DNA from: Saliphagus infecundisoli
Lineage (GTDB): Archaea > Halobacteriota > Halobacteria > Halobacteriales > Natrialbaceae
NCBI RefSeq assembly: GCF_020177375.1
Contig: NZ_JAIWHV010000003.1
Location: forward strand, 124,001-188,000
DNA length: 64,000 nt
Reading direction: 5' to 3'
Shown: positions 5,560 to 60,916 of the stretch, piece after piece
Layout of the letters: every line of letters starts with the position of its first letter
Position numbering within the stretch: the stretch's first letter is position 1
Position numbers and translations under genes: made by a program
Notes under the pieces: generated by a model
Databases searched by the model: none
Seen by the model: only the letters and a program-made list of their open reading frames with translations
What the model was told of the DNA's origin: nothing

Positions 5560-7026
5560 ATGGTGCCGCTCGGCTCGGAGGGGTACTGGCTCGTCCGCCT
5601 TCTCTTCGAGCGGGGGCTGGCGGTGATCTACCTGTTTGCGTTCATCGTTGCGCTCAAGCAGTTTCGTCCCCTGGCGGGCGAGGACGGTCTCCTCCCGATC
5701 GACGAATACGCGGAAGGCGTCGAGTTCGGGGAGCGGCCGAGCCTCTTTCAGCTCCTTCCCGATGACCGATTCATCGGCGCGGCCGCCTGGACCGGAGTCG
5801 TCCTCTCGAGTCTCGCGCTGGTCGGAGTGCCCTACTGGCTCCCCGAACCCTACCCCGTCGTCGCCTCGATGGCCCTGTGGGGTGCGATGTGGGCGCTCTA
5901 CCTCTCCTTTGTCAACGCCGGGCGGGTCTTCTACGGCTACGGCTGGGAGTCGATGCTCCTGGAAACCGGCTTCCTCGCGATCTTTCTCGGTGCAGGCGAA
6001 ACCGCACCGCCGACCGTCGTCCTCCTCCTGATCTCCTGGGTGCTCTTTCGGAACATGTTCGGCGCGGGCCTGATCAAGATCCGTGGCGACGACTGCTGGC
6101 GGGAGTTGAGGTGTATGGACTACCACTACGAGACCCAACCGATCCCCAACCCCCTCTCGTGGTTCGCCCACCGGCTCCCCGATCGGTTTCACCGGGTCGA
6201 GGTGCTGGGCAACCACGTCGTCGAACTCGCGATCCCCTTTCTGTACTTCGCGCCCCAGCCGTACGCGACCGTCGGCGGCGTCGCGACGATCGGCTTCCAG
6301 CTCTGGCTGATGACGACCGGCAACTTCGCATGGCTGAACGCCTTGACCATCGTCCAGGCGACGGCGACGTTCGGCGACGGCACCCTCTCGGTTCTGCCGG
6401 GAGTCTCCGCGCCAGCGGCGGCACCGACGCCGCTCTACCTCGAGGCCCTCGCCCTCCTCGTCGCCGCGGTCATCCTCGTGCTCTCGGTCCCACCGACCCG
6501 GAACATGCTCTCGCCGGGCCAGGTGATGAACACCTCCTTCGACCCGATCCACCTCGTCAAAAGCTACGGCGCCTTCGGCTCGGTCACCAGGGAACGCTAC
6601 CAGCTCGTGATCGAAGGGACTCGCGAGCCGAACCCGGGGGAAGACGACTGGGAGGCCTACGATCTGAAAGGCCAGCCCGTCGATCCCGCCGAACGCCCGC
6701 CCCAGTGGGCGCCCTACCACCTCCGGCTGGACTGGCAGCTCTGGTTCGCCGCCATGCGGTCCCGTCCGGGCCCCCGCCAGCGGTGGCTGCTCGCCCTGCT
6801 GGCGAAGCTACTGGAGGGCGACCGGGAGACCGAATCGCTGCTCGCGGCGACGCCGTTCGAGGAGTCGCCCGAACGGATCCGGGTGCTCAGGTATCGCTAC
6901 CGCTTTACCACCCGCGAGGAACGCACCGAGACCGGCCGGTGGTGGTCCCGCGAGCGCGTCGGCACCTACGTTCCCGCGAGTACGCGCGAGGAACTCGGTA
7001 GCAGTCGCCGGATCCGGCTTCGATAA
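5560..7026 (+). CDS. Lipase maturation factor (LMF1)-like membrane protein
   Basis: A 488-residue multi-pass membrane protein. The region FGAGLIKIRGDDCWREL at about 167-184, then MDYHYETQPIPNPLSWFAH, matches the signature of the LMF1/DUF1222 family. In animals that family is an ER protein needed for folding of lipases; bacterial and archaeal members are uncharacterised. About eight to ten hydrophobic segments occupy residues 10-310, followed by a soluble C-terminal domain (about 310-488) ending in an Arg-rich tail. It is followed after 36 bp by a small two-span membrane protein. No lipase gene is adjacent, so the client is unknown. Confidence 0.8.
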   Translation: MVPLGSEGYWLVRLLFERGLAVIYLFAFIVALKQFRPLAGEDGLLPIDEYAEGVEFGERPSLFQLLPDDRFIGAAAWTGVVLSSLALVGVPYWLPEPYPVVASMALWGAMWALYLSFVNAGRVFYGYGWESMLLETGFLAIFLGAGETAPPTVVLLLISWVLFRNMFGAGLIKIRGDDCWRELRCMDYHYETQPIPNPLSWFAHRLPDRFHRVEVLGNHVVELAIPFLYFAPQPYATVGGVATIGFQLWLMTTGNFAWLNALTIVQATATFGDGTLSVLPGVSAPAAAPTPLYLEALALLVAAVILVLSVPPTRNMLSPGQVMNTSFDPIHLVKSYGAFGSVTRERYQLVIEGTREPNPGEDDWEAYDLKGQPVDPAERPPQWAPYHLRLDWQLWFAAMRSRPGPRQRWLLALLAKLLEGDRETESLLAATPFEESPERIRVLRYRYRFTTREERTETGRWWSRERVGTYVPASTREELGSSRRIRLR

Positions 7027-7062
7027 CGACGGATATAGACCGGATAAACCCACACTCGATAT

Positions 7063-7230
7063 ATGGAACGGTTCGTCCAGTCGATCGTCGCCGGCGGGCC
7101 CGCGCTGGTCGCCGGCCTCTGGCTCGTGGCGCTGGGGGGTTCGATCCCCCGGCTCGCCGGAATCGGCCTCGCTCTCCTCGGAATCGTCGGTCTCGTACGC
7201 GGGATCGGGAGCGAGATCCGGTACTCGTAG
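7063..7230 (+). CDS. Small two-span membrane protein (55 aa)
   Basis: The 55-codon ORF starts at the ATG at 7063, and the TAG ends at 7230. Two hydrophobic stretches (about residues 8-25 and 31-46) are joined by a short SIPRL loop and flanked by charged ends (MERF at the start, GSEIRYS at the end). This resembles a helical hairpin. A TATA-like ggatatag about 30 bp upstream may drive it separately from the LMF1-like gene. The function is unknown. It is short enough to be missed by automated calling. Confidence 0.55.
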   Translation: MERFVQSIVAGGPALVAGLWLVALGGSIPRLAGIGLALLGIVGLVRGIGSEIRYS

Positions 7231-7268
7231 CCCGGGAGTTTTAAGCGTCGGTCCGACGAGCCGCCAGT

Positions 7269-8219
7269 ATGGCAGAGATCGTCGTCCTCAACGGTAGCGC
7301 ACACGGAATCCCCTCCAGCGAGTGTGCCGACGCCCTCCGCGAGCGCCTCGATCGCGAGGTCGAACTCGCCGAGTCGCCGGCCGAGGAGGTCGAACTGATC
7401 CGGGATGCCGAGGTCGCCGTCGGCGGGAAAATGCGCGAGGAGGTCATAGACGCTGCCGGCGAACTCGAGCTGTTCGCCTGCTCGTCGGCCGGGGTCGGCC
7501 ACCTCGACTTGGACGCGCTTGGAGAGCGGGGGATCGCGGTGACGAACGCCTCGGGCGTCCACGGGCCGAACATCGCCGAGCACGTGCTGGGGTGGATGCT
7601 GATGATCACCCGCCGGCTCGACGAGGGACTCGCCCGTCAGGATCGACGGGAGTGGAGCCACTTTCAGGCGTTCGGGGAGTTCCAGGGCTCGCGGGTCTGT
7701 GTCGTCGGCCTCGGCGCGATCGGACAGGCGATCGTCGAGCGCCTGGCGGGCTTCGGTGTCGAGACCGTCGGCGTCCGCTACTCCCCCGAGAAGGGCGGAC
7801 CGACCGACGAGGTGTACGGGTTCGACGAGATCGAGGAGGCACTGGTCGGGGTCGATTACCTCGCAATCGCCTGTCCGCTCACCGACGAGACCCGGGGACT
7901 GATCGGCGCCGAGGAACTCGCGACCCTGCCCCCGGACGCCGTGTTAGTCAACGTCGGCCGCGGCCCGATCGTCGAGACCGAGGCGCTCGTCTCGGCCCTG
8001 CGAAACAACAAGCTCCACGCGGAGGCCCTCGATGTCACCGATCCCGAACCGCTCCCCGAGGACCACGAGCTCTGGGGGCTCTCGAACGTCTACATCACGC
8101 CGCACAACTCCGGGCACACGCCCCATTACTGGGAGCGCGTCGCGGAGATCCTCGTCAGAAATCTCGAGCACGTCGAGGAGACCGGGGAGTACGACGACCT
8201 CGAGAACCAGGTCGCCTGA
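7269..8219 (+). CDS. D-2-hydroxyacid dehydrogenase, NAD(P)-dependent
   Basis: The 316-residue protein has the classical D-isomer 2-hydroxyacid dehydrogenase layout. The Rossmann motif GLGAIGQAIVERL is at about residues 147-159. Signature NVGRGPIVETEALVSAL is near 226-242, and the acidic catalytic segment DVTDPEPLPEDH is near 256-267. The active-site histidine lies in TPHNSGHT near 278. It interconverts 2-keto acids and D-2-hydroxy acids in the cytosol; the exact substrate is not readable. The TATA-like tttaagc about 30 bp before the ATG fits a leaderless transcript. It is convergent with the alcohol dehydrogenase, separated by 3 bp. Confidence 0.85.
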   Translation: MAEIVVLNGSAHGIPSSECADALRERLDREVELAESPAEEVELIRDAEVAVGGKMREEVIDAAGELELFACSSAGVGHLDLDALGERGIAVTNASGVHGPNIAEHVLGWMLMITRRLDEGLARQDRREWSHFQAFGEFQGSRVCVVGLGAIGQAIVERLAGFGVETVGVRYSPEKGGPTDEVYGFDEIEEALVGVDYLAIACPLTDETRGLIGAEELATLPPDAVLVNVGRGPIVETEALVSALRNNKLHAEALDVTDPEPLPEDHELWGLSNVYITPHNSGHTPHYWERVAEILVRNLEHVEETGEYDDLENQVA

Positions 8220-9442: not shown

Positions 9443-11431
9443 TCACCGCAGCGGGACGTCGGTGATCGAAAAGCGAGCGCCGCCCGCCTCGCTCTCCCCG
9501 ATCCGGACCGACCAGCCGTGGGCCTCTACGATCTCGCGGACGATCCCCAGCCCGAACCCGGTTCCCTCCGCGGCGGTCGAGTAGCCGACCTCGAAGACGC
9601 GCTCGCGGTCGGCGGGCGCGACCCCGGGCCCGTCGTCTTCGACGTAGAAGCCGCCAGCGAGGTCGCCGACGCGGACCTCGCTGGCGCCGTGTTCGGCGGC
9701 GTCATCGGGAGCCTGCGAACGATTGCCCGTGGAGCCGTGCTCCACGGCGTTGCGAAAGAGGTTCTCTACGACCCGCGAGAGCCGGCTCCGGTCGGCCAGC
9801 ACGACCGCCTCGCTTTCGACCCGGAGGGTGATCCCCGCCGTCTCGACGGAGTCCCAGCACCGGGCCGCGAGGTCCGCGATCCGGACCCGCTCGAAGTCCT
9901 CGACGACCCGTCCCCCGCGGGCGAGCGCGAGGGCGTCCGCGACGATCTCCCGGCTCCGCTCGACGGCCCGCGCGGCGTCGGCGACGTGCTCGCCCCCCTG
10001 TTCGCCGGCGAGCTCGAGATGGCCCGCCGCGACGCCGAGGGGGTTTCGCAGGTCGTGGCCGAGCGCGCCCGCGAACGCCTCGAGGCGATCGCCGTCCGTC
10101 CCGATCGCCGGGGTGCTCCCCCGGTGGAAGTCCCCCCGGTCGGTCCGATCGAGGGCCGCCCGGACCGTGGTCGCCAGGATCTCGACCAGCGCCTCGTCGG
10201 TGTCGTCGAACGCCTCTGGGTCGGGCGAAGAGGTGATGAAGACGCCGTGGTCGCCCAGCGGGTGGATGATCCCGCTGGCCGCGGGAGTCTCGGCGGCGTC
10301 CATTACTTCCCCGGACTCGACGTCGTCGATGACGAGGGACTCCCCGCGCTCGAAGACGTCCCAAACGACCCGATCGGTCGTCCGATCCGGGTCCGTCCGC
10401 CGGTAGGCCGAGTCGGTTCCGAGTCGCTCCCGGACGCCCTCGGTGACGGCGACCGGCTCGAGGACCTCGCCCTCGCGGAGATGCACCCCGCTCAGGGGGA
10501 GATCAAGCGTCTCCTCGGCGGCCCGGACGGCGACCTCGGCGACCCCCCGCCGGCTTTCGGCCCGGATGAGGTCGTCCATCCACGTCTGGAGCCCTCGGAT
10601 CTTCGCCTCGCGTTCCTGTCTCTCGGTGACGTCGATCAGACAGCCCTCGATGGCGACGACCTCGCCCTCGGCGACGATCGGGGTTCCTTTCTCCCAGACG
10701 TGGCGGCGCTCGCCGTCGGCGGTCCGGATCCGGTAGGTTGCCTCGAAGGACTCGCCGGTGTCGACCGCCGACCGGACCCGCTCGGCTAAGTCCCCTGCGT
10801 CCGCCTCGGCGATGAGGTCGTCCCCGAAGGCGACCTCGCCGCGCTCGAGGGCCTCGGGCGGGTAGCCCGTGAGTTCCTCGACCCGGCCGCCGACGAACGA
10901 CATGTTCCAGGGCGGCTCCGGCGAGCAGCGGTAGACCATCCCCGAGAAGTTGTCCAGAAAGGTCGCGAACTGGCGGCGGCTCTCGGCCAGCGCGACGTGG
11001 GCGCGATGGCGTTCGACGGCGTTCGTGACGCGGTTCGCGAGCACGCGGTACTGTTCGGGGCCGCCCTTCTGGAGGTAGTCGGTGACCCCCGCCGAGATCG
11101 CCTCGCTCGCGATCTCCTCGCTTCCCCGCCCCGTAAAGAGGACGAAGGGAATTTCGGGATGGTCCTCGCGGACGCACTCGAGGAACTCCAGGCCGTCGGT
11201 GCCAGGCATCTCGTAGTCGCTGACGATACAGTCGATCCCGCCCTCCTCGAGGCGCTCGCTTCCCGCCCCGGCGTCGGGAGCCGTCTCAACGACGATCCCC
11301 TCGCCCTCCCGCTCCAAGAACGACCGCGTCAGCTTCCGGTGGGAGGCGTCGTCGTCCACGTGGAGCACGCGGAGGGAGTCCGGATCGGTGGCCGCCGCGC
11401 CGGACGCCGGAGCCACGATCCCCTGGTGCAT
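9443..11431 (-). CDS. Hybrid sensor histidine kinase (REC-PAS-GAF-HisKA-HATPase)
   Basis: The 662-residue soluble kinase has an N-terminal receiver domain (VLHVDDD, then VSDYEMPG with the phospho-acceptor Asp, then YLQKG). A PAS domain with WEKGTPIV and a PAC-like end follows, then a GAF-like segment (about 290-425). The HisKA domain has ALGHDLRNPLG with the phosphorylatable His. The HATPase shows an N-box (NLFRNAVEH), G1 box (DDGPGV) and G2 box (GFGLGI). No membrane segment is present, so the signal is cytosolic. ATG 11431 is preferred to GTG 11440. Haloarchaea carry many such orphan kinases, and no separate response regulator lies nearby. Confidence 0.9.
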   Translation of the reverse strand: MHQGIVAPASGAAATDPDSLRVLHVDDDASHRKLTRSFLEREGEGIVVETAPDAGAGSERLEEGGIDCIVSDYEMPGTDGLEFLECVREDHPEIPFVLFTGRGSEEIASEAISAGVTDYLQKGGPEQYRVLANRVTNAVERHRAHVALAESRRQFATFLDNFSGMVYRCSPEPPWNMSFVGGRVEELTGYPPEALERGEVAFGDDLIAEADAGDLAERVRSAVDTGESFEATYRIRTADGERRHVWEKGTPIVAEGEVVAIEGCLIDVTERQEREAKIRGLQTWMDDLIRAESRRGVAEVAVRAAEETLDLPLSGVHLREGEVLEPVAVTEGVRERLGTDSAYRRTDPDRTTDRVVWDVFERGESLVIDDVESGEVMDAAETPAASGIIHPLGDHGVFITSSPDPEAFDDTDEALVEILATTVRAALDRTDRGDFHRGSTPAIGTDGDRLEAFAGALGHDLRNPLGVAAGHLELAGEQGGEHVADAARAVERSREIVADALALARGGRVVEDFERVRIADLAARCWDSVETAGITLRVESEAVVLADRSRLSRVVENLFRNAVEHGSTGNRSQAPDDAAEHGASEVRVGDLAGGFYVEDDGPGVAPADRERVFEVGYSTAAEGTGFGLGIVREIVEAHGWSVRIGESEAGGARFSITDVPLR

Positions 11432-11502
11432 ACCGGCCACTCGTCGGCGAGCATGATGAGTGCTTCGGCCTGACTGTCGGGAAATCGGATGGGTTCCTGG
11501 CG

Positions 11503-53700: not shown

Positions 53701-54990
53701 CTACGTTGCAACGAGAGAGAACGCGACAGTGTGCTGGTAATCGGTGATCCTCTCACTGCCTTCGTCAGCAACTCCGAGCGATGTAGAGAACTCGAACTCC
53801 GAAGGAACCGTCCCCGGGAATCCCTCGTGGGACAGCCTCACCAGGACGAGTTCCTGTGATCGAGTTTCGTCGGGTTCGAGTTCCCCCAACAGGCTCGTAT
53901 CCGTGGTGCCGACCGAGCCGATCGCAAACCACAGCCGTTCCTTCTCATTGAACGCATACTCGTTTTCATCTGGTGAAACTAGAATGAAATCGTCCGACGT
54001 CAGGGCTCGTCCGAGGGCCGCGCGCCGATCCCTGTAGACGATCGTCTCGTCGGTCGGGTTCGAGATCGAGACGGTGACCGTGAGCGGCGACTCGGGCGAG
54101 TGGATATCGGGTTGGGTCACTTCGAACTCGTGTCGAATCGGGCTCTCCGATGACGTCTCCGGATCTACTTCGTAGGCGCGGCTCTCGCGGACCGGATCAT
54201 ATTGGATATTCTTGTCTTGCTTTCGTGTCGATACGAGAGAGAACGAAAAACCGTACGCGTCTTCGGAATCGTCTTCGCCACCGGTACCCCCGTTTTCCAC
54301 TACGACCGTCGTGGCGAACCAGAGCTGGGAGGGAACCGTCTCCGGGAAGTCCTCGTGCTGTCGTCGCACCAACACGAGCTCTCGAGATAGTGTCTCGTCG
54401 GGATCGAGCTCTCCGGATTCATACGAACCCGTGGAATCTCTCGTTTCCGATTCGAACCACAACCGTTCTCGTTCGTCGAACGAGTACGTGTCTTCTTCGT
54501 TCGGGATCAGTATGAATTCCTCGTACGTGACGTTCTCCGCGACGGCGTTTCCCTTCGTGCTGTAGCGGATCGTCTCGTCGGTCGGGTTCGAGATCGAGAC
54601 GGTGACCGTAAGCGGCGACTCGGACGAGTGGATCTCGGGCTGGATCACCTCGAACTCGTATCGGATCGGGCTGTCCGATGGTGGGTCTGCTTCTATGTCG
54701 TAGGTTCGCCTCTCGCGGTCGCGCTCGCTCCGATCGGTCCCGTTTCCATCCGCTTCCTGCGCTGACTCGTTGGTCGCGTTATCCTGAGTCGGCCCGTTCG
54801 ACGTGTCGTTCTGATTCGTGGTGTTCGAGTCGGGTCCCTCGGTGGGTCCGTTCGATTCGTTTTCCTGATCCGTTCCGTCAGCTTCCTCGTCTTGATCCGT
54901 CCCGTCGGAGCTTTGCGTGGTATCCGTACTGTTCTGGAGGCAGCCACCGAGGACGCCAACACCCGCGATCAGGAGTGCGCGTCGTTTCAT
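53701..54990 (-). CDS. Secreted lipoprotein with duplicated domain
   Basis: A 429-residue lipoprotein. The signal MKRRALLIAGVGVLGGC carries a lipobox at Cys17 and a possible Tat-like Arg pair. A Thr/Asn/Glu/Asp-rich linker with sequons (about 18-95) precedes two related domains, about 95-255 and 265-429. Both contain ESPLTVTVSISNPTDETI with E/DFILV/IP, then ERLWF and a Q/RELVLVR strand. The duplication, and the presence of beta-strand pairs of the ISNPTDETI type, suggest immunoglobulin-like folds. Probably an extracellular binding or structural protein. Function unknown. Confidence 0.8.
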   Translation of the reverse strand: MKRRALLIAGVGVLGGCLQNSTDTTQSSDGTDQDEEADGTDQENESNGPTEGPDSNTTNQNDTSNGPTQDNATNESAQEADGNGTDRSERDRERRTYDIEADPPSDSPIRYEFEVIQPEIHSSESPLTVTVSISNPTDETIRYSTKGNAVAENVTYEEFILIPNEEDTYSFDERERLWFESETRDSTGSYESGELDPDETLSRELVLVRRQHEDFPETVPSQLWFATTVVVENGGTGGEDDSEDAYGFSFSLVSTRKQDKNIQYDPVRESRAYEVDPETSSESPIRHEFEVTQPDIHSPESPLTVTVSISNPTDETIVYRDRRAALGRALTSDDFILVSPDENEYAFNEKERLWFAIGSVGTTDTSLLGELEPDETRSQELVLVRLSHEGFPGTVPSEFEFSTSLGVADEGSERITDYQHTVAFSLVAT

Positions 54991-56883: not shown

Positions 56884-58785
56884 ATGACGGGACCCTCCAC
56901 CGACCGGCTCGACAGGCGATCGCTGCTCGCGGCGCTCGGAGCCGGCGGGTTGGGCGCTACTGCCGGCTGCGTCCACCGAGCCCGCAACGCCGTCAACCGG
57001 GACGGCCCCGAGCAGCTCTCCCTGACGATCACGACCGTCCCCGCCGACGTCGACCAGGTCTCGATCCGGATCGCCAACGACCTCCAGGCGAACCTCGCGG
57101 CAGTCGGGATCGAGGCCAGCATCGACCCGCTGTCGGTCGAGGAGTTCTTCCGGGCGACGCTCGTCAACCACGACTTCGACCTCTTCGTCGGCCACCACCC
57201 CGGCGACGACGACCCCGACTTCCTCTACGAGTCGCTCCACTCGGTGTTCGCGAGCGAACCCGGCTGGCAGAACCCCTACGGATTCACGAACATGGCCTTC
57301 GACACCCTACTGGAGCGCCAGCGGCGGATCGGCGGCGAGGCCCGCCGGACCACCATCGGCGAGATCCTGGAGGCGCTCGCGGCCGAACAGCCGTTCGTCC
57401 CGCTGTGTGTCCCGACCGAACACCGGCTCCTGCGGACCGACCGCTTCGAGGGCTGGAACGACGACCTGCTCGCGAGCCGGCTTGGCTATCTCGGATTGGA
57501 ACAAGTCGAGGGCGCCGAGGGCCCCAACGACCGGCTCCGGGCGCTCGTCACCGACGCGCGCTCGACCGTAAACCTGAACCCGCTGTCGGCGGAGTACTAC
57601 GACCAGAGCACCTACATCGACCTGCTGTACGACTCGCTCGCGACCGCCGACGGCGACGGCTTTCGTCCCTGGCTCGCCGAGTCCTGGGAGTGGGAGGGCC
57701 GGACGGTGACGGTCCGGCTCCGGCCCGACCTCTCCTTTCACGACGGCGAATCCCTCACCGCCGACGACGTCGCCTTCACCTACCGCTTTCTCGACGACAC
57801 CACGCTCGGGGATGAGGAGTCGATCGAGGCGCCGGCGCCTCGCTACCAGGGCCAGGTCACGGCCGTCGAGGAGGTCATCGCTACCGACGACCGAACCGTC
57901 GAGATCGAGGTCTCGACCGGCCGGGAGGTCGGCGAACGCGCGCTCGCGGTCCCGATCCTCCCCGAACACGTCTGGAGAGAGCGCGCCGAGGAAGTCGAGA
58001 TCGCCGGAATCTCGATCTCCCAGGGGACGACGGAGGCCGTCGTCACCGACAACATCCCACCGGTCGGCAGCGGCCCCTTCGCGTTCGTCGAGCGAACCGA
58101 GCGCGAGAGCCTCGAGCTGGCCCGTTTCGAGGACCACTTCTCGCTCCGGGAGGATGCCGGAGCCAGCGGCGGGGACGTCGAGGGCGAGGGAGACGATGAT
58201 GGGGAAAACGGCAACGAGACGCCTCCGACGGGCGCCGAGCGCCGGGAGTCGGGGCCGACGCCGGCGCCGACCGTCGCCGAACTCGGGACCCGGGTCGAAC
58301 CCAGCAGCCCATCGACGATCGAGTCGATGGGAAACGGCGACGGGGACGTCACCGTCACGCCGATAGAGCCCCACACGATCGGGGACGTCGAGGAGCGAGA
58401 GGGACTCGCGCTCCGGGACACGTCCTCCCGGGCGTTCTACCAGGTCGGGTTCAACGTCAGGAACGCCCCCTTCGGGAACCCCTACTTCCGGCGGACCGTC
58501 GCCCGCCTGCTCGACAAGGCGTGGATCGCCCGCGACGTGTTCTACGGCCACGCCGACCCCGTCGCGACGCCGCTTCCCGAGGGATGGGAACAGCACGACG
58601 GGGACGACAGGAACGAGGAAGCCAGCGACGAGTGGGTTCCCGAGAGCCTCCGGTGGGACGGCGAGGACCCCGAAGTCCCCTTCTTCGGCGAGGACGGCGA
58701 CCTCGACGCCGAGGCCGCCCGCGCGGAGTTCGAGGAGATCGGCTTCCAGTACAACGACCAGGGCGACCTCCTCATGGGTGAGTGA
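56884..58785 (+). CDS. Family 5 solute-binding lipoprotein, apparently circularly permuted
   Basis: The 633-residue protein has a Tat lipoprotein signal (DRRSLLAALGAGGLGATAGC). Residues about 40-205 resemble the C-terminal lobe end of OppA/DppA-type proteins (LQANLAAVGIEASIDPLSVE; DFDLFVGHHPGDDDPDFLYE). Residues about 218-420 instead match the normal N-terminal part (VNLNPLSAEYYDQSTY, then DLSFHDGESLTADDVAFTYR). The end (FYQVGFNVRNAPFGNPYFRR near 517, then DAEAARAEFEEIGF near 607) matches the middle of the family. So the order looks permuted. An acidic Gly/Glu linker lies at 430-500. Coupled to PAP2 by GTGA. No permease is nearby. Confidence 0.75.
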   Translation: MTGPSTDRLDRRSLLAALGAGGLGATAGCVHRARNAVNRDGPEQLSLTITTVPADVDQVSIRIANDLQANLAAVGIEASIDPLSVEEFFRATLVNHDFDLFVGHHPGDDDPDFLYESLHSVFASEPGWQNPYGFTNMAFDTLLERQRRIGGEARRTTIGEILEALAAEQPFVPLCVPTEHRLLRTDRFEGWNDDLLASRLGYLGLEQVEGAEGPNDRLRALVTDARSTVNLNPLSAEYYDQSTYIDLLYDSLATADGDGFRPWLAESWEWEGRTVTVRLRPDLSFHDGESLTADDVAFTYRFLDDTTLGDEESIEAPAPRYQGQVTAVEEVIATDDRTVEIEVSTGREVGERALAVPILPEHVWRERAEEVEIAGISISQGTTEAVVTDNIPPVGSGPFAFVERTERESLELARFEDHFSLREDAGASGGDVEGEGDDDGENGNETPPTGAERRESGPTPAPTVAELGTRVEPSSPSTIESMGNGDGDVTVTPIEPHTIGDVEEREGLALRDTSSRAFYQVGFNVRNAPFGNPYFRRTVARLLDKAWIARDVFYGHADPVATPLPEGWEQHDGDDRNEEASDEWVPESLRWDGEDPEVPFFGEDGDLDAEAARAEFEEIGFQYNDQGDLLMGE

Positions 58786-59666
58786 GCGTGCTCGGCCGGG
58801 TCCTCCTTGAGGTAAGCATCGGCGTCTCGATCATGATCGCCGTCGCGACGGCCGTCGTCGTCGGCCGCCAGCGGCTCGTCGTCACACTCCGGGAGTTCAC
58901 CGACCGGCTCCGGGACGTCGCACCGACCGCGGCCGTCCTCACGGTCGTCCTGCTGTTCAACGGGATCGCCCGCCAGGTCGTCCCGGAGCTCTCCTGGATC
59001 ATTAACCAGAACGTCGGCTTCGTCAACCTCAACCTCACGTGGGTGATCTACGACCTCGAGGGCGAGTTCCTCGTCTGGCTCCAGTCGTTTGCGAACCCGA
59101 CGTTCACCAGCTACTTCTCGTTTATCTACATCTACGGCTACATCTTCCTGCTGGTCTTTCCCGTGGTCGCCTACTTCGCGCTCCCCAACAGCCGCCCGTT
59201 GCGCGAGTTGCTCGCGGCCTACACGCTGAACTACGTCCTCGGGCTGATCTGTTACGTCGTCATCATCGCCTACGGTCCCCGGAACATGATGCCCGAACTC
59301 GTCCAGGGGCTGCTGTTCGACACCTATCCCCGCTACCAGTACCTCACGCGCCAGGTAAACCGGAACACGAACGTCTTCCCCTCGCTTCACACCTCGCTTT
59401 CGGTGACCGTAGCCTTGCTCGCCTACCGCTCGCGGGCCGTCTACCCCCGGTGGCACCCGGTCGCGTTCACCCTCGCGGTCAGCGTCGTGCTCTCGACGAT
59501 GTATCTGGGAATCCACTGGGCGACCGACGTGGTCGCCGGGATCGTCCTCGCCTGGCTCTGCGTGGTGCTTGCCTCCCGGCTGGTCGGACGCTGGTCGCCC
59601 GTGGGCTACCTCCGTGACCACTTTCGCGACCGGGGCTGGCTCGGCTCCCGACCGCCGGAGCCGTGA
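58782..59666 (+). CDS. PAP2-type membrane phosphatase (inositolphosphotransferase-like)
   Basis: A 294-residue membrane protein with about six helices. PAP2 signature motifs appear as VFPSLHTSLSVTV (about 200-212) and YLGIHWATDVVAG (about 244-256), with the catalytic His in each. The first motif (K-x6-RP) is degenerate, near YGPRNMMPEL. This resembles the PAP2_3/Ipt1 branch, acting on lipid phosphates or lipid head-group transfers at the membrane's outer face. GTG 58782 overlaps the TGA of the preceding gene, so they are translationally coupled. Partnership with a substrate-binding protein is unusual. Confidence 0.85.
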   Translation: MSVLGRVLLEVSIGVSIMIAVATAVVVGRQRLVVTLREFTDRLRDVAPTAAVLTVVLLFNGIARQVVPELSWIINQNVGFVNLNLTWVIYDLEGEFLVWLQSFANPTFTSYFSFIYIYGYIFLLVFPVVAYFALPNSRPLRELLAAYTLNYVLGLICYVVIIAYGPRNMMPELVQGLLFDTYPRYQYLTRQVNRNTNVFPSLHTSLSVTVALLAYRSRAVYPRWHPVAFTLAVSVVLSTMYLGIHWATDVVAGIVLAWLCVVLASRLVGRWSPVGYLRDHFRDRGWLGSRPPEP

Positions 59667-59717: not shown

Positions 59718-60113
59718 TCAGTCGTCCTCGAGCGCGTCGGCGATGCGCTGTAGCTGCCGGGTCTGGTCGCGCATCTCGTCTCTGAGCTGTCGGACCTCGC
59801 GGACCAGTTCCTCGTTGTCGCTGCCCTGGTCGCCGCCAGGCGCCCCGCCGGGACCGCCGGGGCCGCCCCCGCCCATCATGCCGCCCATCATCTGGGCGAA
59901 GGGGTTGCCGCCACCGCCGCCCATGCCGCCAGGCCCGCCACCGCCGCCACCGAAGGGGTCCGGCGGCCCCTCGCCCTCTCCCTCCTCGCCTTCCTCGGCG
60001 CGTTTCTCGCGGATCTCCTCGACGCGCTCGCGGAAGGACTTCTCCTCGCCCTCTCCGGTCTCTGCGTCCTCGCTACCGGCGTCCTCGGCGTCGTGTTCGT
60101 TGTCGTCGGCCAT
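59718..60113 (-). CDS. Gly/Met-rich protein with terminal coiled coil
   Basis: A 131-residue protein of unusual composition. Residues 1-50 are very acidic. Residues 53-95 are Gly/Pro/Met-rich (GGGGGGPGGM; QMMGGMMGGGGPGG). Residues 98-131 are a coiled coil (ELVREVRQLRDEMRDQTRQL). Low-complexity Gly/Met segments of this type may interact with membranes, metals or other coiled coils. No enzyme motif is present. It is convergent with PAP2, separated by 51 bp. I recognise no family. Confidence 0.7.
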   Translation of the reverse strand: MADDNEHDAEDAGSEDAETGEGEEKSFRERVEEIREKRAEEGEEGEGEGPPDPFGGGGGGPGGMGGGGGNPFAQMMGGMMGGGGPGGPGGAPGGDQGSDNEELVREVRQLRDEMRDQTRQLQRIADALEDD

Positions 60114-60157
60114 GAGGGCGGGTTCTCCGCCGCGCCGGAAAAGGATTGTCATAGCCG

Positions 60158-60916
60158 TCAGAACGAACCCAGCGACGACTGGAGCCGGCGTTCGTCGGCC
60201 CCCTCCTCGAGCTCGTAGCCGACCAGGTCGCGCATGTCGACGGCGTACGTCGTCGCGCCCCGATCGAGGACGAGCAGCCGCCCCTTCACGCCCCGAACCG
60301 TACCCGAAGCAATCGTTTCGACCACTGGTCGGACCGGGAGGTCGAGTCCGTAGTCGAAGGCGTAGCGGTCGATGACGTCGAACTCCGCGAGAGCGCCCTC
60401 CCACCGATCCGCGTCCACGTTCGCCGCGAGGCCGGCCCGCTTGGTCGGGACCCGGACACGGTCAGTGAGTTCCTCGGCGATTCCGGCCTCGAGTTCGCGG
60501 GCGATCCGGCCGTTCGAGACGGTGTGGATGTGGGCCCCGCGGTCGGCGCCCTGCTCGCGCAGGCGGGTCTCGAGGCGCTCGGCCCGCGTTACTCCGACCT
60601 TGACCGTCCTGGGAGCGAAGGCCGCGAGGTAGACCGCGTGAGGGTCGTAACAGTCCATCTCGTCTTTGAGACAGGTTCCCGTACAGCGGGCACAGACCCA
60701 GCTCGTCGTGTGGAACTCGCAGTAGGGGGTTTCGGGGCGGTCGCAGGCGTAGTGGACGCCCTCGCGGTCGATCGAGCCGGCACACCGCCGGTCGCCGAGC
60801 CCGAAGCCGAGGTCGGTGCCCGGTTCGAGGGAGATCCGTCGGGCCTCGCTCCCGTCGCCGTCGCTGACCAGCAACGCGGAGCCCCGGCCGCTCGGGTCGT
60901 AGCCGACGACTTGCAC
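60158..60916 (-). CDS. DUF2797-family protein
   Basis: A 252-residue protein. Cys/His motifs in the first third (DRRCAGS, HYACDRPETPYCEFH, CARCTGTC and CYDPH) bind probably one or two zinc ions. The segment VYLAAFAPRTVKVGVTRAER, then TRLREQGADRG, resembles a GIY-YIG-like nuclease fold seen in DUF2797 proteins. Role unknown, perhaps nucleic-acid processing. It ends 44 bp before the Gly/Met-rich gene. Confidence 0.8.
   Translation of the reverse strand: MQVVGYDPSGRGSALLVSDGDGSEARRISLEPGTDLGFGLGDRRCAGSIDREGVHYACDRPETPYCEFHTTSWVCARCTGTCLKDEMDCYDPHAVYLAAFAPRTVKVGVTRAERLETRLREQGADRGAHIHTVSNGRIARELEAGIAEELTDRVRVPTKRAGLAANVDADRWEGALAEFDVIDRYAFDYGLDLPVRPVVETIASGTVRGVKGRLLVLDRGATTYAVDMRDLVGYELEEGADERRLQSSLGSF

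Follow-up and report, generated by a model that had tools for sequence, protein, structure and literature searches.

A circularly permuted family 5 solute-binding lipoprotein paired with a PAP2 membrane protein in haloarchaea

The chain of a family 5 solute-binding protein (SBP) encoded by the haloarchaeon Saliphagus infecundisoli is circularly permuted inside lobe II, and its gene stands in an operon-like arrangement with that of a PAP2-superfamily membrane protein, the two genes being gained and lost jointly. The permutation is not confined to this pairing, as it also occurs in Opp/Dpp ABC transporter operons of Proteobacteria and haloarchaea.

A family 5 chain permuted inside lobe II

In the window, the whole stretch of 64,000 nucleotides that was analysed, the permuted SBP is encoded at 56884-58785 (+ strand) by an open reading frame of 633 amino acids plus stop. 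The Pfam profile SBP_bac_5 (PF00496) matches it in two pieces, residues 43-120 corresponding to profile positions 287-363 and residues 260-627 to positions 2-284, with a split score of 157.2 bits (cut-off 32.4). Because profile positions 287-363 precede positions 2-284, the reverse of the canonical segment order, the protein is, judged by these matches, a permuted variant of SBP_bac_5 and not an ordinary member.

The chain begins with a Tat signal (DRRSLLAAL) and a lipobox (ATAGC), both recognised by motif within residues 1-29 (56884-56970, +). Arg11, Arg12 and Cys29 are invariant in an alignment of 23 homologues, which agrees with an earlier sequence-only reading that the lipoprotein signal is intact, and by motif the protein is a predicted Tat lipoprotein. 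The signal is followed by the displaced C-terminal third of the family, now N-terminal (residues 40-205; 57001-57498, +), by a linker, variable in length and sequence, that connects the former C and N termini (residues 206-217; 57499-57534, +), and by the N-terminal lobe and middle part of the family, which run to the new C terminus (residues 218-627; 57535-58764, +). The motif order described in the sequence-only reading held with one refinement, namely that AR..L..AG (residues 607-622) is the last motif of the chain, while a QAQLAEIGI-like segment (residues 61-78) lies at its start.

Sequence searches of NCBIfam and the PDB revealed the same swap, with residues 32-178 aligning to SapA 363-511 and residues 260-296 to NikA 57-94. 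As a control, we rotated the sequence at residues 213/41, and this restored one contiguous, end-to-end PF00496 match (positions 2-362 of 368) which scored 169.6 bits, compared with 157.2 bits for the split match. Once rotated, the protein is therefore homologous over the whole profile to family 5 (cluster C) proteins such as OppA, DppA, NikA and AppA, with which it shares the lipoprotein signal and the same fold elements, but from which it differs in its chain order, broken in lobe II, and, in the PAP2-paired class, in the lack of an ABC permease.

We also built a 540-column profile from rotated homologues, which includes both permuted classes described below and is thus unfit for comparing class scores. 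Normal-order SBPs from many phyla matched it front to back, whereas the matches of 178 permuted open reading frames, full or partial, fell into two parts in exchanged order, broken at columns 369/371. One further permuted fragment flagged with this profile (L155) was unconvincing. With a profile of the PAP2-paired class alone, the ABC-associated class scored 127-237 bits and normal proteins up to 174 bits, so that the ranges overlap.

An AlphaFold2 model built with 36 sequences folded the permuted SBP as one confident unit (mean pLDDT 86.2, pTM 0.85), with residues 40-205 mostly above pLDDT 90, and did not show the two separate partial domains that would be expected of a fusion. Residues 205-633 superposed on AppA over its initial two thirds (residues 18-357; Z 22.3, rmsd 2.7 over 332 residues), in keeping with a two-lobed fold, and superposed similarly on NikZ, DppA and LpqW, the LpqW structure (2grv) giving Z 19.8 over residues 214-633. 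The structure aligners used keep chain order and these superpositions cover residues 205-633 (or 214-633); accordingly, the match ends where the canonical chain enters the segment that is now N-terminal, and the Foldseek TM-scores are low (about 0.4-0.5). Sequence searches with both permuted clades returned no solved structure of a permuted family 5 protein, although one may exist.

The contiguous rotated match, the single predicted fold and the break shared by 178 open reading frames all indicate a real permutation, as had been proposed. We found nothing in favour of an artefact, whether a frameshift, a misassembly or two partial proteins fused, and its probability is negligible given that the same open frame is present in hundreds of independent genomes and that the AlphaFold2 model is one fold; recurrence, the rotation control, the single-fold model and the shared break together rule out a fusion of partial proteins or a misassembly.

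The PAP2 partner and the genes that accompany the pair

We searched the proteins of 392 genomes of the order Halobacteriales (threshold 1e-30), and matches collinear with the permuted SBP across the junction were present in 248 of them, representing 69 of 96 genera; among these matches a few weak rows may be fragments. In a phylum-wide profile search, full-length permuted matches were obtained only within the order; more distant archaea of the phylum gave partial matches, as normal SBPs do.

The PAP2 gene (58782-59666, +; 294 amino acids, GTG start) begins within the end of the SBP gene, the SBP stop and the PAP2 start codon sharing the four bases GTGA, an overlap that had been noticed from the sequence. 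The pairing recurs, as the sequence-only reading had invited us to ask: a PAP2 gene directly follows a permuted SBP in 40/40 loci, with at least one from each genus sampled (L080 and L087 being a single place), and over 82 partly redundant loci the SBP-PAP2 pairs number 93. The two genes overlap in 49 of the 83 measurable pairs, by one base in 34 and by four in 14. Several genera carry tandem pairs. Not every second SBP copy of Natrinema and some of its relatives has its own PAP2 gene. A divergent second SBP clade (L203-L210) pairs with a divergent PAP2 clade, and SBP and PAP2 distances correlate (r 0.86), a value that would be expected from relatedness alone too.

Presence and absence of the two genes were compared in two sets of genomes, those of the first taken from the profile search. 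In the first set a PAP2 orthologue, scoring over 300 bits, was found in 17/17 genomes with the PAP2-class SBP and 0/31 without it, two of the SBP-negative genomes having distant PAP2 proteins (87-89 bits); in the second set of 20 genomes the counts were 12/12 and 0/8. Overall, the orthologue is present in 29/29 genomes with the permuted SBP and 0/39 without, counts that are uncorrected for kinship beyond the fact that genomes with and without the SBP occur side by side in the same families and in genera g20, g23, g44 and g52. The negatives of the second set include five Natrialbaceae genomes (genera g20 and g23) which lack both genes, while their relatives keep both. Both genes are present but far apart in genomes G023 (L216, L229), G026 and G038. 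Paralogues belonging to the same PAP2 group also occur with no SBP next to them, in varied gene contexts, one of them in the same genome as the window (L218:8308-9159, - strand; G000:C22) and others at L219-L226.

The PAP2 partner matches PF14378 (PAP2_3) with 63.1 bits (cut-off 27) and PF01569 with 47.2 bits, and its candidate catalytic residues His203, His245 and Asp249 are invariant in two alignments, of 23 and 30 homologues. Its model (pLDDT 87.5, pTM 0.85) is closest in fold to the inositol phosphorylceramide synthase AUR1 (Z 17.6 and 16.6), followed by LpxE (15.5), a sphingomyelin synthase-related protein (13.9) and PgpB (12.3). The classical lipid phosphatase signature consists of KxxxxxxRP, PSGH and SRxxxxxHxxxD, with an arginine in the last motif, C3. 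The PAP2 partner instead has PSLHTS and STMYLGIHWATD, with an invariant Thr239 at the position of the C3 arginine, and KxxxxxxRP (motif C1) was not seen in the alignment of its homologues. Because the C3 arginine is absent, we did not keep the reading as a classical lipid phosphatase. The partner shares with AUR1, LpxE and PgpB the PAP2 fold with its H/H/D residues, but is about 17 percent identical to them and lacks the C3 arginine; its likeness to an AUR1-type phosphotransferase, which transfers a phospho-head-group between lipids, is one of predicted fold only. From these fold matches, it is likely to be a lipid phosphatase or a head-group phosphotransferase.

The SBP-PAP2 system probably includes a third protein. 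It belongs to a family of membrane proteins of about 420 residues with an invariant WPxTS motif, here called WPYTS; in Halorubrum, Halomarina, Haloferax gibbonsii (L233) and others its gene immediately precedes that of the SBP in the same orientation. WPYTS genes are found, for example, at L069:7472-8653 (+), L102:4578-5816 (+) and L233:2402-3868 (+), and at G000:C22:1129-2406 in the same genome as the window. In the first set of genomes, WPYTS, often unlinked, was present in 23/23 genomes with the pair versus 0/31 without, and in the second in 11/12 versus 4/8, giving 34/35 versus 4/39 over both sets; the four positive genomes without the pair all belong to g20, a genus in which relatives carry two copies. 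In G023, where SBP and PAP2 are separated, WPYTS is still close to PAP2.

WPYTS has no Pfam match, and nothing significant was found in NCBIfam or the PDB. LssY_C (PF14067) accompanies PAP2 in bacteria; we rejected it as the identity of WPYTS, for which Pfam gave nothing at E values as high as 5, and found no LssY_C loci in the nine genomes tried. PADLOC gave no defence match for the SBP, PAP2 or WPYTS proteins.

Among the neighbours of the pair and of unlinked WPYTS genes, the only further constancy was local synteny. In four Natrialbaceae loci (L048, L052, L057 and L058) the pair is flanked by GT4 glycosyltransferase genes (in L048 at 6297-7442 and 10349-11458, both -) related to the glycolipid synthases IagA/BgsA and Dgs, the best match, to IagA/BgsA, reaching 273.8 bits, which is below the cut-off of that model; these neighbours weakly hint at glycolipid metabolism. 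Haloferax gibbonsii (L233:910-2262, -) and Haladaptatus caseinilyticus (L234:2101-3525, -) have genes annotated as aryl-sulfate sulfotransferase family a short way upstream of the pair. In the window itself, a Gly/Met-rich protein with a low-complexity middle and charged ends (EEKSFRERVEEIREKRAEEGE...NPFAQMMGGMMGG...) is encoded at 59718-60404 (-) and is related to proteins encoded next to the pair at 11 further loci, a DUF2797 protein, of a family without assigned function, is encoded at 60158-60916 (-) and is conserved near the pair in several loci, and 53701-54990 (-) encodes a putative lipoprotein of 429 amino acids whose halves are near-repeats of each other and which has no Pfam match.

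A second permuted clade in Opp/Dpp operons and the origin of the permutation

Family 5 SBPs are commonly found with their transporter, and in the genome that contains the window 15/15 normal members have a BPD_transp_1 permease less than 6 kb away. For the permuted SBP, the distance to the closest permease on the same contig is about 122 kb, and neither BPD_transp_1 permeases nor oligo_HPY ATPases are linked to the PAP2-paired class, there being no conserved ABC genes among the neighbours of the pair in 40 loci. The permuted SBP could in principle be an ordinary importer component that shares an unlinked Opp/Dpp permease, of which the genome has many, with PAP2 only dephosphorylating an extracellular substrate or co-transcribed for another reason; the permuted fold can indeed serve a transporter, as shown by the second clade described next. 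We nevertheless consider this unlikely, since no permease adjoins the SBP in the loci examined whereas every normal SBP of its own genome has one nearby, and since its co-occurrence with PAP2 is strict (29/29 versus 0/39).

The second permuted clade (L115-L120, L125, L138, L198-L201 and L217) comprises SBPs which are 22-28 percent identical to that of the window where aligned and have the same breakpoint. In the neighbourhoods surveyed, which were those of members other than L116 and L120, their genes adjoin OppB/OppC-type permeases and, in most cases, ATPases. Complete Opp/Dpp ABC operons with such SBPs occur in Proteobacteria and haloarchaea (L115:5965-7599, L138:5944-7680, L231:5887-7536 and L232:5893-7569, all +). 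Annotated plasmids of Nitratireductor, Halalkalicoccus and Ketogulonicigenium carry the permuted SBP in the same Opp/Dpp operon, and their records name it only "ABC transporter substrate-binding protein". Some loci of this clade adjoin hydantoinase, creatininase or peptidase genes.

In trees of rotated sequences, the PAP2-paired class and the ABC-associated class each form one clade. The permuted order could have arisen independently in the two, and a tree that retained long-branch rows gives some support to this, as five normal, long-branch proteins fell near the PAP2-paired class and the two permuted clades were not adjacent, some normal proteins standing between them. When the long-branch rows were removed and the set was thinned, a single branch separated permuted from normal proteins (SH-aLRT 99), and a further tree without long rows gave the same branch bootstrap/SH-aLRT values of 100/97, although the bootstrap had not fully settled. 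Moreover, the breakpoint is equal in the two clades to within about two profile columns. Because of this single branch and the shared breakpoint, a single origin is the better reading, and we regard two independent origins as very unlikely. A single event in the SBP of an Opp/Dpp ABC importer thus probably gave rise to the permutation, as far as the sequence trees indicate. As association with ABC genes is the norm of the family, the PAP2-paired class would have lost its transporter, and the evidence supports a course in which one haloarchaeal branch did so and was then recruited by a PAP2 protein.

Proposed function and relation to known systems

In our assessment, the permuted SBP fairly probably works without a transporter, as a lipid-anchored binding protein which feeds, gates or scaffolds a PAP2 lipid phosphatase or phosphotransferase that faces outward. 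It would be exported by the Tat pathway and anchored by lipid on the outer face, with the anchor next to lobe II instead of lobe I. There it would bind a conserved ligand in its cleft and either deliver it to the PAP2 protein or gate or stabilise that protein, which may resemble AUR1 or LpxE and act on an archaeal phospholipid or lipid carrier, as a lipid phosphatase or head-group phosphotransferase. Several observations count against this explanation: the genes are non-adjacent in G023, G026 and G038, SBP copies without PAP2 and PAP2 paralogues without SBP exist, the PAP2 protein has no C3 arginine, and the single origin depends on the removal of long-branch rows.

In SBP family 5, one segment helps to line the cleft. 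This segment, with an invariant GWQNP motif, is kept in the permuted SBP, which therefore probably still binds a specific ligand, and the residues Gly127-Trp-Gln-Asn-Pro131, Gly395-Ser-Gly397 and Asn524 are invariant in the alignment of homologues, a pattern which suggests that the binding site is kept. The strong conservation of this cleft-lining segment speaks against the alternative that ligand binding was lost and that the SBP serves PAP2 and WPYTS solely as a scaffold or chaperone, which we find quite unlikely even though the SBP-like lipoproteins LpqZ and FecB have been reported to bind glycosyltransferases without a transporter (PMC12802301).

Precedents exist for parts of this arrangement. 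LpqW is an SBP-fold lipoprotein which takes part in mycobacterial envelope lipid or polysaccharide synthesis (PMC3229680), and LpqZ-AftA and FecB-AftB are couples in which such lipoproteins serve envelope enzymes (PMC12802301), so that SBP-fold lipoproteins can do so without a transporter (PMC3229680, PMC12802301). As far as described, LpqW, LpqZ and FecB are not permuted, and their partners are glycosyltransferases or lipoglycan synthesis, whereas that of the permuted SBP is a PAP2 protein; its likeness to LpqW lies in the modelled fold over residues 214-633 and the absence of a permease only. A natural, lipid-anchored, circularly permuted SBP has been described in Treponema pallidum, Tp0684 (MglB-2), for which its authors proposed the label Type Ic or Cluster Bc (PMC4990184). 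Tp0684 is a sugar-binding protein of Type I (cluster B) and differs from the haloarchaeal SBP in fold class and breakpoint and in having no PAP2 pairing; the latter belongs to SBP_bac_5 and is broken within lobe II, unlike the N-lobe strand permutation of the Type I (cluster B) fold that defines Type Ic. In open-access PMC papers we found no report of a family 5 permutation or of an SBP-PAP2 pairing, in line with the sequence-only reading, which knew of none.

Natural circular permutations of SBPs are rare in the searchable literature, where we found one described case, of another structural class. The permuted family 5 proteins form a large series dated by phylogeny, in which unpermuted relatives, a permuted transporter form and a permuted non-transporter form can all be compared, and which allows one to ask what an anchor and termini placed on the other lobe do to a Venus-flytrap protein. 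Haloarchaeal PAP2 enzymes and a membrane protein without an assigned family gain a defined partner, which opens gaps in the metabolism of archaeal lipids and carriers to testing in haloarchaea used as genetic models. Together, the permuted SBP and PAP2 may belong to a membrane system that has yet to be described. We tentatively entertain a broader picture, in which an undescribed, ancient clade of permuted family 5 SBPs would span Bacteria and Archaea, and one haloarchaeal branch would have left transport for a three-protein system of the outer face, made up of WPYTS, the permuted SBP lipoprotein and the AUR1-like PAP2 protein, that might remodel or recycle an archaeal lipid or lipid carrier.
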